This document shows positions 1,743 to 9,532 of a stretch of 64,000 bases of DNA, piece after piece (the stretch's first letter is position 1; each line of letters starts with the position of its first letter). The notes below the pieces were generated by a model. The model made no database searches and was not told where the DNA came from. It saw only the letters and a program-made list of their open reading frames with translations. The position numbers were made by a program, and so were the translations under genes. Source of the DNA: an uncultured Roseobacter sp. (GTDB taxonomy: Bacteria > Pseudomonadota > Alphaproteobacteria > Rhodobacterales > Rhodobacteraceae); contig NZ_CANLQB010000003.1 of NCBI RefSeq assembly GCF_947493125.1, positions 310,001-374,000 of the forward strand, given 5' to 3'.

Positions 1743-3284
1743 TCAGCTCTCCGGTGGCGCGCCGCCCGCGTCCGATCTGGTGCGGATATCGGCGTGCAGG
1801 CGCGACAGCGCATCGGGATCGACGGTCGGGCCCGTGGGATCCGCGAGGATCCGCTTCCACAGGCCTGTGGCGCGGGTGGTTGTGTCGATGCTGCCGCGTT
1901 CCTGCCAGGTGCCGAAGTTCGAGAGGTCCCCGATCAGCGGTTCGTAGAAGGCGGTTTGATAGCGCTCCATCGTGTGGGCGGCGCCGAAGAAATGGCCGCC
2001 GGGTTGGACCTCTTCGAGAGCTGCGAGGCCGATGTCGGCGTCTTGTGCGGGCGTTTCGGCGCAAAGCTCAGCGACCATTTGCAGCACTTCCAGATCGGTG
2101 ATCAGCTTTTCGTAGGACACGGTCAGCCCACCTTCCAGCCAGCCGGCGGCATGGATCACCACCGTGGCGCCCGCCAGCAGGCAGCCCCAGGTGCCGAACT
2201 GGGTTTCATTGGCGGCCTGCACATCGCCGAGGTTGGCCGCCGACCCGCTGGCGCAGCGCCAGGGCAGGCCGATGAACCGCGCGAGCTGGCCTGCGGCGAG
2301 GCTCGCCTTGAAGTGTTCGGGCGTGCCGAAGGCCGGGGCGCCGGATTTCATGTCGACGTTGGAGGTGAAGGTGCCGTAGCAGACCGGCGCGCCGGGGCGG
2401 ACCAGTTGGGTGAGGGCGATGGCGGCGAGCGCTTCGGCGTGACTGAGCGTCATCGCCCCCGCCACGGTGATCGGGGCCATCGCACCCATGAGGGTAAAGG
2501 GCGTGACGATGCTGACCTGCCCGGCCTTGGCAAAATCCATCAGCCCCTGCGCCATGGGGATGTCGAGCGTGCGGGGCGAATTGGTGTTGATGATCGTATA
2601 GCAGTGGCTTTCCGCGGTGAACTCCGCATCCGAGAGCCCCCGGAAGTCGCGCAGCATCTCGAAGCTTTGCTCCACCTGCGGCGTGCCGCGCGAGAAGATG
2701 AAGGGCACCTTGTCCGACAGCGACAGTTGCGCGTCCAGCGTTGCGTAGTGGCGCAGGTGCATCGGCACATCCTGCGGCTCGATCAGCGGCGGGACCATGT
2801 GCAGCACGTCGAAATGCTGGGTGAGCTGCACGAGCTCGCGGAAGTCGCGGTCTGTGCCGGGGCGGCGGCCCCGTTCCAGATCGGTGGCATGGGGCGCGCC
2901 GGCGCCGGGCTGAAAGACAAGGTTGCCGAGCTCCAGGGTGATGTCACGATCAGGCACGGCGCCGCGCACGGGGATAGAGCGGGGCGCGCTGGCCAGCGCG
3001 GCCTCCACAATCTCGCGCCCGATGTGCACCATTTCTGTGTCGTCGTGCACCGTGGCACCGCCCGCCTTGTAGGCGTCGCGCGCAGCGGGCAGGAGCACCT
3101 TGATGCCGAGGCGTTCGAGCACGTCCAGCGCGGCTTCGTGGATCGCCGCGATCCGATCCTCCGAGAACACCGACATGGGTGGGAACGGGTTGCGCAGGCG
3201 GCGATAGTCGACCTTGCGTTTCTCGGGCGGGGCGCCGCCGCCCCGGCGGGTCCGCCGACGACCGGTGTTTTCGGCCAGCGTCAT
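1743..3284 (-). CDS. MttB-family (trimethylamine methyltransferase-like) protein, non-pyrrolysine type
   Basis: 513 residues that match the MttB superfamily over the full length (for example VLERLGIKVL near residue 47, GPTVDPD near the C-terminus). Methanogen MttB needs an in-frame amber codon read as pyrrolysine; here the frame is uninterrupted, so it belongs to the larger non-Pyl group, whose characterised members demethylate quaternary amines such as glycine betaine and pass the methyl to a corrinoid protein. No corrinoid protein or RamA activator gene is in the window. The ATG overlaps the stop of the upstream flavoprotein gene by four bases (ATGA at 3281-3284), so the two are translationally coupled. 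The Arg-rich N-terminus (RRRTRRGGG) is unusual. Substrate is not readable from sequence. Confidence 0.87.
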   Translation of the reverse strand: MTLAENTGRRRTRRGGGAPPEKRKVDYRRLRNPFPPMSVFSEDRIAAIHEAALDVLERLGIKVLLPAARDAYKAGGATVHDDTEMVHIGREIVEAALASAPRSIPVRGAVPDRDITLELGNLVFQPGAGAPHATDLERGRRPGTDRDFRELVQLTQHFDVLHMVPPLIEPQDVPMHLRHYATLDAQLSLSDKVPFIFSRGTPQVEQSFEMLRDFRGLSDAEFTAESHCYTIINTNSPRTLDIPMAQGLMDFAKAGQVSIVTPFTLMGAMAPITVAGAMTLSHAEALAAIALTQLVRPGAPVCYGTFTSNVDMKSGAPAFGTPEHFKASLAAGQLARFIGLPWRCASGSAANLGDVQAANETQFGTWGCLLAGATVVIHAAGWLEGGLTVSYEKLITDLEVLQMVAELCAETPAQDADIGLAALEEVQPGGHFFGAAHTMERYQTAFYEPLIGDLSNFGTWQERGSIDTTTRATGLWKRILADPTGPTVDPDALSRLHADIRTRSDAGGAPPES

Positions 3285-5683
3285 ACTCGCATGACCTTGC
3301 CCTCTGGATCATAAGGCGAGGGCGGGATAACCTTCGCGGCGCGCTCGATCCCCACCACATGCACGCTGAGTGCTGTGTCCGGTTTCGCATGTTCGGTGTT
3401 GACCAGCGCCATGGCGAGCGATTTGCCGGTGGTGTGCCCGAAGGCGCCGGAGGTCACGAAGCCGACCTTTTCCTCGCCGGCCCAGATGGGTTCATAGCCG
3501 CTGGCATCCGCGTCCTTGGCGTCGATTTCAAGGGTCACCTGGATTTGCGCGGGGCCGTTGCCGTCCCGTTCCGCCAGGGCTGCCGATTTGCCGACAAAGT
3601 CTTTCTCCCAGTCGATCCAGCGGTCCATGCCGGTCATGCCAGGGGTGTAGCCTTGGGTGAATTCGGCGTTCCAGATGCCGAAGCTCTTTTCGATCCTCAG
3701 GCTGAGGAGCGCGTTGAACCCGATCTCGCGGATACCGTCCTCTTCGCCCGCCTCCAGCAGGATGCGGCGCAGGGTGGCGTGATCGCCCGCGCGGCAGTGG
3801 ATTTCATACCCCAGCTCGCCCGTGACCGAGAGGCGACCCACCTTGCAGCGCAGAAGGCCGATGTCGAAGGCGCCGCAGCCCATGAAGGGCAGGTCGCCGA
3901 TGGGGCCGTCGGTGAGTTTCTCAATGACCGCCTTCGACGCAGGTCCGGAGAGCGAGAACCCGGCGGTGTCGTCACCCAAGTCGCGGATGGTTACGCCGTC
4001 GTCCATGTGGTCGTTGAACCAGCGCATGTGCCAGCTGCGCAGGTAGTAGCTGCCCATGATCCACCAGGTGCCGTCGCCCCAGTTGAAGATGGTCAGGTCT
4101 CCTTTGAGACGCCCGTCTTCCGCCAGCATGGGCGCCAGTTTCGCCCGACCCGGTTTCGGCAGTTTCGAGGCCATGATGCAGTCGAGCCAGGCCTCTGCGT
4201 TCGGGCCGGTGACCTCGAAGCGCGAGAACCCGGTGATGTCGAGCAGGCCGACGCCGTTGCGCACGGCGTGACATTCATCGGCCACGATCAGATGTGCGTT
4301 CGAGCGTTTGAGCGAGGGCGTTTCCTCGAACCCGGGCTCGGCAAAATAGAGCGGCACCTCCAGATCCCAGCTTTGGCCCCACTGGCAGCCCGCGGCGGTC
4401 ATGTCGGCGTAAGCGCCTGCGGTCTTCAGCGGGCGGCCCGCGGGCAGCTGTTCGTTCGGATAGGTCATCACGAAGCGGCGGGTGTAGAACTGGCCGGTGG
4501 TCTCCTTGATGTACTGTTTGTTCTCGGCCCAGATGCCGTAGCGGGCCACGTCCATCCCGTAGACATCCGCTTCGGGCGCGCCGTGGATCATCCATTCGGC
4601 AAGGCTTTTGCCCACGCCGCCGCCTTGCAGGAAGCCGGCCATCACCGCGCAGGCGGACCAATAGCCACGTTTGCCGGGCACCGGGCCCACCAGCGGGTTG
4701 CCGTCGGGCGAGAAGGTGAAGGCGCCGTTGACCCAGGTCTTCACGCCGACCTCTTGCAAGCAGGGGTAGCGTTCGAAGCCAAGGGTCAGCTCATACTCGA
4801 TGCGGTCAGGGTCTTCCTGCTGGAGCTCGAAGCCATACTCCCATGGCGCGCCGTCCATCATCCAGTGCTGGTGATTGATCTCGTAGATGCCCAGCAGCAC
4901 GCCTTTCTGATCCTGCCTCAGATAGGTGAAGCCCTCCAGATCCACGGTCATTGGCACTTCGAAGTCGATGTCCTCCAGCTGCGGGATCGTGTCGGAGATC
5001 AGGTAGTGGTGGTTGAGCGGGGAGACGGGCAGTTCGATGCCCGCCATGCGTCCCACCTGCTTGGCCCAGAGACCGGCGGCATTGACCACATGCTCGCAGG
5101 TCACCGTGCCCTTTTCGGTGACGACCTCCCAGCCTTGCAGCGTCTGGTTCAGCTCCAACACGCGGTTGTGCTCGATCACCTCGGCGCCGCGCTTCTTGGC
5201 GGCCCCCGCATAGGCGTGCACGGTGCCGGTGGTGTCGATGTACCCCTCGCGGTCTGCCCACATGCCGCCCAGCAGCCCGTCACCCGACATGATCGGATTG
5301 AGCTCCATCGCCTCTTCGACGGTGACGAGGCGGCAGTCTTCGATGCCGATGGACTGGAAGGTGCGGTAGGCTGACTGCAGCCATTTCCAGCGGTCGGGGG
5401 TTCCGGCCATCGTCAGCCCGCCGGTCATGTGCAGCCCGATGTTCTGGCCGCTTTCCGCCTCGATCTCGCTCAAGAGGTCGATGGTATAGGCCTGCAGTTG
5501 CGCGATGTTCGGATCGGCGTTCAGCGCGTGGATGCCGCCCGCCGCGTGCCAGCTGGAGCCCGCGGTCAGCACCGAGCGCTCGATCAGGCAGACGTCGGAC
5601 CAGCCCATCTTGGCCAGATGGTAAAGCACGGAGGCGCCGACTACGCCGCCCCCAATCACGACAACGCGGTAGTGCGACTTCAT
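3281..5683 (-). CDS. GcvT-family FAD-dependent oxidoreductase (dimethylglycine/sarcosine dehydrogenase-like)
   Basis: 800 residues. The N-terminal half is a DAO-type flavoprotein with the dinucleotide motif GGGVVGAS at residues ~10-17 and GSSWHAAGG, where the His aligns with the covalently flavinylated His of mammalian dimethylglycine dehydrogenase. The C-terminal half is the tetrahydrofolate-binding GcvT/aminomethyltransferase fold. Such enzymes oxidise N-methyl groups and transfer the one-carbon unit to folate. The start is ATG at 5683 with a GGGAGG ribosome site just upstream; the longer open frame lacks flavoprotein sequence. First gene of the operon with the MttB-like and TetR genes. Together they suggest stepwise demethylation of a methylated amine; whether the substrate is dimethylglycine, sarcosine or another compound is open. 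Confidence 0.9.
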   Translation of the reverse strand: MKSHYRVVVIGGGVVGASVLYHLAKMGWSDVCLIERSVLTAGSSWHAAGGIHALNADPNIAQLQAYTIDLLSEIEAESGQNIGLHMTGGLTMAGTPDRWKWLQSAYRTFQSIGIEDCRLVTVEEAMELNPIMSGDGLLGGMWADREGYIDTTGTVHAYAGAAKKRGAEVIEHNRVLELNQTLQGWEVVTEKGTVTCEHVVNAAGLWAKQVGRMAGIELPVSPLNHHYLISDTIPQLEDIDFEVPMTVDLEGFTYLRQDQKGVLLGIYEINHQHWMMDGAPWEYGFELQQEDPDRIEYELTLGFERYPCLQEVGVKTWVNGAFTFSPDGNPLVGPVPGKRGYWSACAVMAGFLQGGGVGKSLAEWMIHGAPEADVYGMDVARYGIWAENKQYIKETTGQFYTRRFVMTYPNEQLPAGRPLKTAGAYADMTAAGCQWGQSWDLEVPLYFAEPGFEETPSLKRSNAHLIVADECHAVRNGVGLLDITGFSRFEVTGPNAEAWLDCIMASKLPKPGRAKLAPMLAEDGRLKGDLTIFNWGDGTWWIMGSYYLRSWHMRWFNDHMDDGVTIRDLGDDTAGFSLSGPASKAVIEKLTDGPIGDLPFMGCGAFDIGLLRCKVGRLSVTGELGYEIHCRAGDHATLRRILLEAGEEDGIREIGFNALLSLRIEKSFGIWNAEFTQGYTPGMTGMDRWIDWEKDFVGKSAALAERDGNGPAQIQVTLEIDAKDADASGYEPIWAGEEKVGFVTSGAFGHTTGKSLAMALVNTEHAKPDTALSVHVVGIERAAKVIPPSPYDPEGKVMRV

Positions 5684-5715
5684 GGGGATCCTCCCGGTGA
5701 TCTTGGCGCAGGCAT

Positions 5716-7519: not shown

Positions 7520-9532
7520 CTACGCCCGGACCCACCCGCGTTGCGTCATTCCGACGAAGCCGAGCTCGGCAGGTGCCGGCACGTTGCGCAGAACCAGATC
7601 GCGCATCGAACCGCAGGCCGCGATCTGCTCCCAGCCGTATCTGGAAAACGTCGGATGCTCCACCTCCGGGTCCTGCGGCGGTTTGAAGATATGTTCGGAC
7701 AGGAGCGGATTGGTCAGCGCCTGTGAAAACGCATCCAGCGCCACGAAGGACAGGATCGTGCGCGGCAGCGGCGCGTTCTTCACCCGGTCCTCGCAGAAGA
7801 GGCCCACGAAGAAGTCGACCCGGTCCACATCGCCATACGTCTTCTTGAGGATCTTCGCGACCTCACGATCAGAGGAGATGTCCGACATGCTCTCGATCGG
7901 CAGGCGCTGGAGGTATTCCAGATAGTCCGTGAAGGGCCGCAGCTGACAGAACCGGCCCTGCTCGACCGAAGCTTGCTCTACATGCATGAGGAACTTCGTG
8001 GTGTTGCGCGGGCCCAATTCGCCCGTGGCCTGCGCGCTCATGTCCTCGAAAGCCTGCGCCAGCCCGCCGTCGAGCAGCGGTTTCATCTCCATGAAATACG
8101 CCGGGTTCGTCTTATGCGTGGTCTCTCCCCAGCGGATTTCATCCGGGATCAGCGCGTGCCAGCGGTAGAGCAGGCTGAACTCCGTCGTGATCCAGTTCGG
8201 ACGGTTCCAGTTGGCGTTCCAGGCCGCCTTCGGGTCGGCCTTCAGCCGGAATTCCGTGGGCGCGATGTGATTGATGTAATCCTCCACCACGATCTTGATG
8301 AATTGCACGATCACGATATTCCGCGCAGTCTCGAACAGCCTGTCGTCATCCCAGTCGGGATAGCGCTTGCCCATCTCGGCGGCGAGGCGATTGTGTTCAC
8401 GCAAAAGAACGGTGTTGATCATTGCGGTTTGCGGCACCGAATTCGCCCGGTCCCCGCCGAAGGCAAAGAGCCGCCCGCGTTTGGCGCGGACCTTCTCGGC
8501 CACCTCGGGCTTGTCCTCTGCAATGGCCTTGTCGATGGCGTTGGTCAGGTTCTCGAGCCCCAGAGGTTTGTCGAGCACTGCGAATTCCGGCTTGATTTCG
8601 TCGCCCTCGAACAGGAAGGGCGCGAACTCCTCGTCGTCCAACAGCTGGGACTTGAGCTTGCCGCGATCTTCGGGCGCAGGATCTTTCACCCGCAGCGCCA
8701 CGGTCTGTTCTTCCGTGCGGCCATAGAGCGGGCAGAGGTCGATGTTGTGGTTCGATGTGTTCTTCTTGAGGCGATCCGTGACGGTCTCATTCGTCTGCGT
8801 GCGGATGAACCCATCGGTCAGATATTGCGCGAAGGACGGGAAGAGGCAGGTGGACTTCGGGCACATGCGCTGTGTGCCTGAGGTGCGTTCAAAGAGCGGG
8901 CTGATCTCCTCCCAACTGGGCAGGCTCTCTTGATCAAGCGGCGAGACCCCAAGGTGCCGCGCGCTCCATTCGGTGTCGGTCAGGCTGGCCCAGGAGGTAT
9001 AGTCGCTGCGGGTGGAGAAGGGATGCGGGCGGTTGCGCACCTGTTTCACGATCCGGTTGATCACCACGCGGTTGATGAAGGCGTCGAGCGGCGGCACCTT
9101 CTCGATCAGCGCGACGATCCAGGGCACGTTCAGCAGCCCCATTAAAGCGTCGCCGATGCGTCCCAAGACGCGGCGCAGGAACAGATCGACCGTGCGCGAC
9201 TTTTTCATCTGTCCGTAGAAGGCACGAAAGACCAGAGGAAAGGCAAGAATATACCAAAGCTGGCCTGTCCATGGCTGGTCGAGCGCCACGATGGACCAGA
9301 GCCCGGCGATCACGCTGAAGACCGTGAAGATCCACCAGCCATGCTGCCGACCGCGCCACAGCTTGTAGATGCCGAAGAGGCTGGCCAGGAAAACGGGGAC
9401 CAGAAGCAGCCGCGCCCCGTCGCCCGGGAATTGGGTCAGATGTCGCATCATCTGGTAAAGCATGACTGCGCCGATGAGGGCGCAGGCAGCTGCGAGGAAG
9501 GTTTTGTGTTGCGAGTGAGAGCTCTCTGCCAT
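7520..9532 (-). CDS. membrane-anchored cyclooxygenase-like haem peroxidase family protein
   Basis: 670 residues from ATG 9532 (GGAGA ribosome site; the in-frame TTG at 9538 is less likely). Residues ~11-107 carry four hydrophobic segments. From about residue 225 the sequence follows the catalytic domain of animal prostaglandin synthases: LLREHNR (376-382), an IKIVVEDYINH helix (412-422) and EFSLLYRWH (451-459). By family knowledge Tyr456 corresponds to the radical-forming Tyr385 of COX and His459 to the proximal haem ligand. In the distal helix FAQYLTDGF, Gln203 of COX is kept (Q236) but distal His207 is Asp240. Peroxidase activity may therefore be lost or altered while fatty-acid oxygenation remains possible. 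It stands alone, convergent with the LysR gene. Family is clear, substrate unknown. Confidence 0.85.
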   Translation of the reverse strand: MAESSHSQHKTFLAAACALIGAVMLYQMMRHLTQFPGDGARLLLVPVFLASLFGIYKLWRGRQHGWWIFTVFSVIAGLWSIVALDQPWTGQLWYILAFPLVFRAFYGQMKKSRTVDLFLRRVLGRIGDALMGLLNVPWIVALIEKVPPLDAFINRVVINRIVKQVRNRPHPFSTRSDYTSWASLTDTEWSARHLGVSPLDQESLPSWEEISPLFERTSGTQRMCPKSTCLFPSFAQYLTDGFIRTQTNETVTDRLKKNTSNHNIDLCPLYGRTEEQTVALRVKDPAPEDRGKLKSQLLDDEEFAPFLFEGDEIKPEFAVLDKPLGLENLTNAIDKAIAEDKPEVAEKVRAKRGRLFAFGGDRANSVPQTAMINTVLLREHNRLAAEMGKRYPDWDDDRLFETARNIVIVQFIKIVVEDYINHIAPTEFRLKADPKAAWNANWNRPNWITTEFSLLYRWHALIPDEIRWGETTHKTNPAYFMEMKPLLDGGLAQAFEDMSAQATGELGPRNTTKFLMHVEQASVEQGRFCQLRPFTDYLEYLQRLPIESMSDISSDREVAKILKKTYGDVDRVDFFVGLFCEDRVKNAPLPRTILSFVALDAFSQALTNPLLSEHIFKPPQDPEVEHPTFSRYGWEQIAACGSMRDLVLRNVPAPAELGFVGMTQRGWVRA

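Follow-up and report, generated by a model that had tools for sequence, protein, structure and literature searches.

The linoleate 10S-dioxygenase of Nostoc punctiforme (10S-DOX or NpDOX, UniProt B2J5P4) is a characterised bacterial fatty-acid dioxygenase, described as also accepting oleate and as working together with a catalase-related hydroperoxide lyase that is encoded by a separate gene (PMC13049297). It was used to prepare 10S-hydroperoxide (PMC9579011). Its published model features three membrane-binding helices (aB-aD), and at the position of His207 of cyclooxygenase (COX) it differs by the motif F143-t-d-s-F, with Asp printed in the distal motif of this active enzyme (PMC13049297). 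The bacterial 10S-DOX/COX-like family is already known and little studied; putative bacterial cyclooxygenases were described in 2015, on the basis of putative protein sequences, as Family 4 of the peroxidase-cyclooxygenase superfamily (PMC4420034).

The window, i.e., the whole stretch of 64,000 nucleotides from an uncultured Roseobacter sp. that was analysed here, encodes a protein of 670 amino acids (P0001) which, by the published descriptions, belongs to the same superfamily and evolutionary direction as Family 4. Compared with the published description of 10S-DOX, it has in common the T-D distal motif, the catalytic Tyr, the proximal His, the central Tyr, a Phe at the position of COX Tyr504, the DAFxQA motif and COX-type membrane-binding helices. 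It differs by an additional N-terminal module of approximately 108 residues, by Leu238 in place of the first Phe of the motif, by Ala424 in place of Thr310 and by the lack of an adjoining catalase-related gene. The animal enzymes COX-1 and COX-2, which are the targets of aspirin, share with P0001 the fold family, the equivalents of Tyr385, His388 and Tyr348, the distal Gln and, at profile level, most of the membrane-binding domain. In contrast to them, P0001 carries Asp240 for the distal His, Arg362 for the Val before the LREHNR block, Ala601 for Ser530, Val597 for Gly526 and Phe575 for Tyr504, features added N-terminal helices, and no EGF domain was found in it. Fungal DOX-P450 fusions (Ppo, LDS) likewise consist of a COX-like dioxygenase working with a P450, an arrangement found as adjacent genes in three rhizobial relatives but not at the window gene, and the fungal CcDOX1 and CcDOX2 are reported to keep the distal His that is Asp240 in P0001 (PMC9579011). 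A distal Asp-Arg pair is likewise described for dye-decolorizing peroxidases (PMC6153280), which belong to a different superfamily and fold and serve here for a comparison of mechanism only.

Gene, Superfamily Membership and Relatives

The features of the gene, which starts with ATG, are compiled in Table 1. P0001 matches the animal haem peroxidase model PF03098 over residues 242-603 with 133.8 bits (cut-off 25, E 9.1e-39), and membership in the peroxidase-cyclooxygenase superfamily follows from this match above the curated cut-off and from the invariant proximal His459; NCBIfam models gave no match at E up to 1. In a search of solved structures with the single sequence, COX-2 was the top match (E 5e-47) and COX-1 was also among the best, with weaker matches to peroxinectin A (2e-18) and plant alpha-dioxygenase (3e-11). 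A family profile built from 19 relatives aligned with COX-2 over chain 57-541 (E 1.3e-101), and alpha-dioxygenase chains ranked after COX and peroxinectin A (E 5.9e-29). The resemblance of P0001 to COX is far beyond chance. Accordingly, the first-pass annotation was right to propose a COX-fold haem protein with tyrosyl-radical residues: besides the PF03098 and COX-2 matches, the blocks LLREHNR, IKIVVEDYINH and EFSLLYRWH as well as Tyr456, His459, Gln236 and Asp240 all lie where it had placed them. Its statement that the EGF-like domain is absent agrees with the lack of such a Pfam match and with a COX-2 profile alignment that begins later in the chain. One other PF03098 match was found in the same genome (L002); its distal motif is DHD, and it is therefore of a different kind from P0001.

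Table 1. Positions in the window of the gene and of the parts of its product (residue numbers of P0001)
Feature	Coordinates	Strand	Basis
COX-like / 10S-DOX-like haem dioxygenase gene, 670 aa	7520..9532	-	ORF, PF03098, COX-2 alignments
N-terminal module of approximately four hydrophobic helices, residues 1-108	9209..9532	-	hydropathy, AlphaFold, distribution
Residues 109-168: basic stretch, followed from ~130 by a region aligned to most of the membrane-binding domain of COX	9029..9208	-	profile
Residues 236-240 (Q-Y-L-T-D): distal Gln236 and Asp240 at the COX His207 position	8813..8827	-	alignment
Arg362, peroxidase catalytic-Arg position, Val in COX	8447..8449	-	alignment
Tyr419, COX Tyr348 equivalent	8276..8278	-	alignment
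Residues 456-459: Tyr456 (COX Tyr385) and His459 (proximal His388)	8156..8167	-	alignment
Residues 600-605 (DAFSQA), as the 10S-DOX terminal motif; Ala601 at COX Ser530	7718..7735	-	alignment

Protein searches revealed a patchy distribution with copies that are sometimes broken. Seven loci were obtained from named genomes. Within the family, 17 of 394 genomes contained a match, seven of which (the own genome included) held clade members that match across most of the catalytic part, while a further one held a broken clade member; within the phylum there were matches in 19 of 398 genomes, with four clade members, two of them new, and within the genus in 14 of 19 genomes. Plasmids contributed matches in 13 of 72,556 records, nine of which were fetched. 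Among viral contigs, 46 pattern matches included no relative. Among the clade's hosts are Roseobacter, Rhizobium, Sinorhizobium, Paracoccus, Methylobacterium, Ruegeria and the cyanobacterium Acaryochloris, with Cyanobacteria being represented in the sample only by two near-identical Acaryochloris plasmid proteins.

Distal Haem Side

The distal motif of P0001, AQYLTDGF, fits the pattern Q-x-x-T-D-[GS]-F of bacterial 10S-DOX/COX-like dioxygenases, and A-Q-x-x-T-D was present in all 31 intact clade proteins whose distal helix was read (P0001, L003-L007, L009, L011-L016, L030-L038, L041, L042, L103-L109), a set that includes the near-copies L004/L005/L007, L034/L035 and L013/L041. This count covers neither the broken L008 and L017, three Paracoccus yeei plasmid matches and one weak Calothrix match, nor L085-L089, which were taken as the same genes as L003-L007. 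The motif occurs in one open piece of the broken Roseobacter cerasinus copy L008 and was not found in the pieces of L017. His occupies the distal position in all seven bacterial alpha-dioxygenase-like proteins (L025-L027, L043-L046) and in two COX-2 sequences; peroxicin-like proteins with an identifiable distal motif feature DHD and in one case DHG, and no distal motif was identified in the more distant peroxidases L028, L047 and L049. Judged from these sequences, the distal Asp is a family trait and no private loss of P0001. Absence of the distal His is in itself no new observation, the His being described as only partially conserved in a set of alpha-DOX family sequences (PMC8720084). The first Phe of the F-T-D-S-F motif, found in 10S-DOX, COX and more distant relatives, is exchanged for Leu in P0001 (Leu238) and in its nearer relatives.

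A second residue belongs to this picture. Arg362 lies 16 residues before the R of R-E-H-N, the same spacing as that of the Arg in the peroxicin-like G-D-V-R-A-N-E; the corresponding block of P0001 reads G-G-D-R-A-N-S. Arg was found at this position in 27 of the 31 clade proteins; L016 and L042 have His instead, L037 and L038 have Asn. The motif R-x-x-E is described as combining the catalytic Arg with the ester-forming Glu (PMC4420034), and P0001 keeps the Arg and replaces the Glu by Ser365. A review from 2026 flags the conserved Arg of DOXs at the position of COX Val291 as worth study (PMC13049297). In a dye-decolorizing peroxidase, the distal Asp is reported to deprotonate H2O2, and its loss to make compound I form three orders of magnitude more slowly (PMC6153280). 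By analogy, Asp240 and Arg362 could do the job of this Asp-Arg pair in P0001.

The exchange of the distal His had been interpreted as an impairment of the peroxidase site particular to this protein. Such an impairment does not follow, as Asp240 is accompanied by Arg362 and dye-decolorizing peroxidases use such a pair; besides, the same Asp is general in the intact clade proteins read and stands in the motif of the active 10S-dioxygenase. A variant of the enzyme proposed here, in the form given by the first-pass annotation, would be the same oxygenase with a disabled peroxidase site whose priming is slow, Asp being no substitute for the distal His. In its favor are the exchange of COX His207 for Asp, the four of 31 clade proteins that have no Arg either and the remark in PMC13049297 that information on DOX peroxidase activity is scarce. 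Conservation of the Asp in all intact clade proteins read and of the Arg in most of them, together with the Asp-dependent H2O2 deprotonation described in PMC6153280, makes this explanation rather unlikely, albeit one to be taken seriously.

Neighboring Genes

The window and 31 further loci (L008 being broken) were searched with five query proteins, i.e., one P450, three catalase-related proteins and one KatG; partners of other types could be missed. A co-directional gene of these types adjoins nine of the 31 intact genes and is lacking at 22, with a P450 or catalase-related neighbor at seven loci and KatG at two more. The P450 neighbors belong to three rhizobia (L030, L031, L032) and the catalase-related ones to Paracoccus (L033), Methylobacterium (L036) and Ruegeria (L037, L038), while KatG was found at L071 and L076. 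The KatG assignment is firm and the catalase-related protein of L036 passes the Pfam cut-off. Several other assignments are weak: the P450 at L030 and the catalase-related protein at L033 remain below their curated cut-offs, L037 has no Pfam match, and L037 and L038 resemble the other catalase-related proteins at 27-33%. With the five queries, neither the window gene nor the other Roseobacter loci examined yielded an adjoining gene for a P450, a catalase-related protein or KatG, so that there is no sign of a downstream pathway at these genes. Such a partner gene is, however, no strict criterion for the 10S-DOX/COX-like group. The nearest relative with a catalase-related neighbor, L033, is only 39% identical to P0001.

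On the rhizobial plasmids (L030 3712-6614, L031 3715-6617, L032 3736-6653), the P450-like gene is located directly upstream of, or overlaps, the COX-like gene, and these pairs look like the unfused counterpart of the fungal DOX-P450 proteins. The Paracoccus yeei plasmid (L033 2096-6572) carries co-directional genes for a RoxA-like cytochrome c, a catalase-related protein and the COX-like protein, the last two overlapping by 4 bases. At L071 (5599-9562) and L076 (8252-12154), the COX-like gene is followed in the same direction by KatG, a catalase-peroxidase. The own genome contains one catalase match and P450 matches in five reading frames, none of them on the contig of the window.

The COX fold might also have been kept by an enzyme that acts on a non-lipid substrate as a peroxidase or by radical chemistry, or by a peroxide scavenger. 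The Arg at the peroxidase catalytic position and the KatG neighbors of two relatives would suit such an enzyme. This is nevertheless improbable, since Tyr456 and Tyr419 are invariant, the peroxicin-like proteins with a readable motif have D-H instead, and the P450 and catalase-related neighbors fit hydroperoxide metabolism.

In the vicinity of the Roseobacter genes, a divergent GntR, a convergent LysR and a methyltransferase gene recur at L003, L004, L005 and L007, the latter two genes also at L008. None of the three was found near L006, L009, L108 and L109, and an operon or functional partnership with them was rejected on that ground.

Phylogeny and Oxygenase Residues

The haem-peroxidase family tree proposed as a check by the first-pass annotation was calculated from 32 proteins and rooted by midpoint, with the program warning of long branches. 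The seven alpha-DOX-like proteins are separate (100/100), the two COX-2 sequences sit on a long branch, and a less well supported branch (86/90) has the 23 proteins with the distal Asp on one side. P0001 belongs to a six-row subclade with L003, L004, L006, L007 and L009 (100/100). The residue table shows no exchange of Gln236, Asp240, Tyr419, Tyr456 or His459 in any of its 23 clade rows. A fatty-acid alpha-dioxygenase forming 2-hydroperoxides might be considered on account of the alpha-dioxygenase chains that follow COX and peroxinectin A among the solved relatives, and of the alpha-DOX family sequences reported in Proteobacteria, a set which may include the clade of P0001 (PMC8720084). The separate grouping of the bacterial alpha-DOX-like proteins and their residues, distal His and Trp at position 419 in seven of seven where P0001 has Asp240 and Tyr419, make this assignment quite improbable.

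The features typical of 10S-DOX are present in P0001 with the catalytic Tyr456, the central Tyr419 and the terminal DAFxQA motif; Phe575 occupies the COX Tyr504 position as in 10S-DOX, at a site that is variable in the clade. At the positions of COX Arg120, Gly526 and Ser530, P0001 has Ile161, Val597 and Ala601. The alignment at Arg120 may be shifted by one residue, with Arg160 being adjacent, and neither residue 160 nor 161 is conserved over the clade. A prostaglandin-forming cyclooxygenase, to which COX-2 as the best solved relative might point, is thus very improbable, because these three positions hold other residues, the terminal motif resembles that of 10S-DOX, and C20 polyenes are unexpected in this host.

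N-Terminal Module and Membrane-Binding Region

Four hydrophobic N-terminal segments had been proposed for the protein. Kyte-Doolittle windows of 19 residues exceed 1.4 at residues 11-29, 35-53, 66-84 and 126-144, and the proposed fourth segment (approximately 91-107) reaches a mean of only 1.09. AlphaFold predicted helices at 8-34, 44-59, 64-82 and 88-106, with ten-residue mean pLDDT values of 71-86 over residues 11-110, which makes the N-terminal helices the most confident part of the model. The N-terminal membrane segments are supported, the fourth remaining below the hydropathy cut-off in this protein. Models from seven sequences were too poor for a fold search or an overlay both at full length (mean pLDDT 44.9) and for residues 109-670 (37.7). 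P0001 is probably membrane-anchored, as far as hydropathy and predicted helices tell. Residues 108-135 contain six K+R and two D+E; of the N-terminal loops, the first and the second have two K+R each and the third has no K+R. These loop charges, weak evidence for topology, give a slight hint of a cytoplasmic location of the catalytic part.

The monotopic membrane-binding domain of COX had been considered absent and replaced by the N-terminal helices, neither of which was supported. In the profile alignment, residues ~130-168 match chain 57-94 of COX-2. Counted back from Arg120, the aligned stretch starts at approximately residue 89 in COX-1 numbering, i.e., from about the second membrane-binding helix on, the domain of COX-1 comprising residues 73-116. 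Most of the domain before the catalytic part is hence present, aligned at sequence level only and with the first helix uncovered. The N-terminal helices are an added module of one subclade, and shorter relatives, some of them in the same genus, do without them.

The module was seen in P0001, L003-L007, L009, L108 and L109, and the other clade rows tested have no such hydrophobic segment before the catalytic part, except for one in L042. By this distribution, it is an addition of one Roseobacter-centred subclade. In L009 (uncultured Rhodobacteraceae), it is only 30% identical. The window gene appears to be subject to purifying selection, residues 1-108 included, with a pN/pS of 0.135 against the L003 orthologue (88% identical), 0.33-0.44 against L004, L006 and L007, and 0.62 against L009, where synonymous sites are saturated. 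In the six sequences compared, the common start codon has a GGAG-like or GGGG stretch on its 5' side.

Among the 19 genomes of the genus, eight possess the long form and four have short forms only; of the others, one holds a broken copy, one holds remnants and five have none. Genome G782 has two different short COX-like genes (L103 and L104), 58% and 44% identical to P0001. Broken or remnant copies within the genus were observed at L008 (6148-7556) and in genomes G771 and G786, suggesting that the gene is dispensable in some of its species.

Proposed Function and Significance

Homology, residue conservation, profile alignment, module distribution and the neighbor genes of relatives together indicate that P0001 is likely a fatty-acid haem dioxygenase of the known bacterial COX-like/10S-DOX family. 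A fatty-acid dioxygenase, as first proposed, is also the best reading here, with hydroperoxides rather than prostaglandins as the presumptive products. Haem-gene neighbors of some relatives could handle such hydroperoxides, which was counted in favor of this function, as was the purifying selection. Counted against it were the lack of a partner at the window, the 22 of 31 loci without one, the low identity of L033, Leu238, the four of 31 proteins without the Arg362 equivalent, the poor structure models and the patchy, sometimes broken gene. Roseobacters are rich in cis-vaccenate, and since 10S-DOX moreover accepts oleate, a membrane-derived C18:1 acid may tentatively be put forward as natural substrate, although this is more of a candidate than an expectation.

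The membrane-tethered enzyme would have its catalytic part probably on the cytoplasmic side, and the N-terminal helices would hold it at the lipid source. Peroxide would oxidise the His459-ligated haem, aided by the putative distal pair of Asp240 and Arg362, and the oxidised haem would generate a radical on Tyr456. This radical would abstract hydrogen at an allylic or bis-allylic position of an unsaturated fatty acid, followed by addition of O2 and, presumably, release of a fatty-acid hydroperoxide.

In a wider sense, it is conceivable, if short of probable, that a bacterial branch of the COX fold swapped its His-based distal catalyst for an Asp-Arg pair, with the tyrosyl radical being primed by carboxylate acid-base catalysis, and that a Roseobacter-centred subclade gained a four-helix anchor and became a membrane-lipid oxygenase. 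If this is true, the published rule of a superfamily dependent on a distal His-Arg pair would no longer hold. In the literature searched, with most subscription journals lying outside the search, nothing was recognised on the anchored form or on an Asp-Arg pair in this superfamily. The start of the tyrosyl radical and the uncoupling of peroxidase and oxygenase are usually approached with mutants of animal COX in which the distal His is exchanged. A naturally occurring branch with Asp in every member examined, and mostly with the peroxidase Arg, makes both questions testable in bacterial enzymes. Moreover, the findings point to oxylipin formation in roseobacters and rhizobia, and the P450 and catalase-related neighbors of some species resemble an unfused form of the fungal DOX-P450 pathway.

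Two other gene groups were observed in passing. In the window, a trimethylamine methyltransferase-like gene (PF06253, E 8.5e-201) lies beside a gene for an FAD oxidoreductase/GcvT fusion protein (1743-5692, minus strand). At L006 (8528-11228), the genes downstream of the COX-like gene resemble fabA, fabB and fabI, enzymes of unsaturated fatty-acid synthesis.
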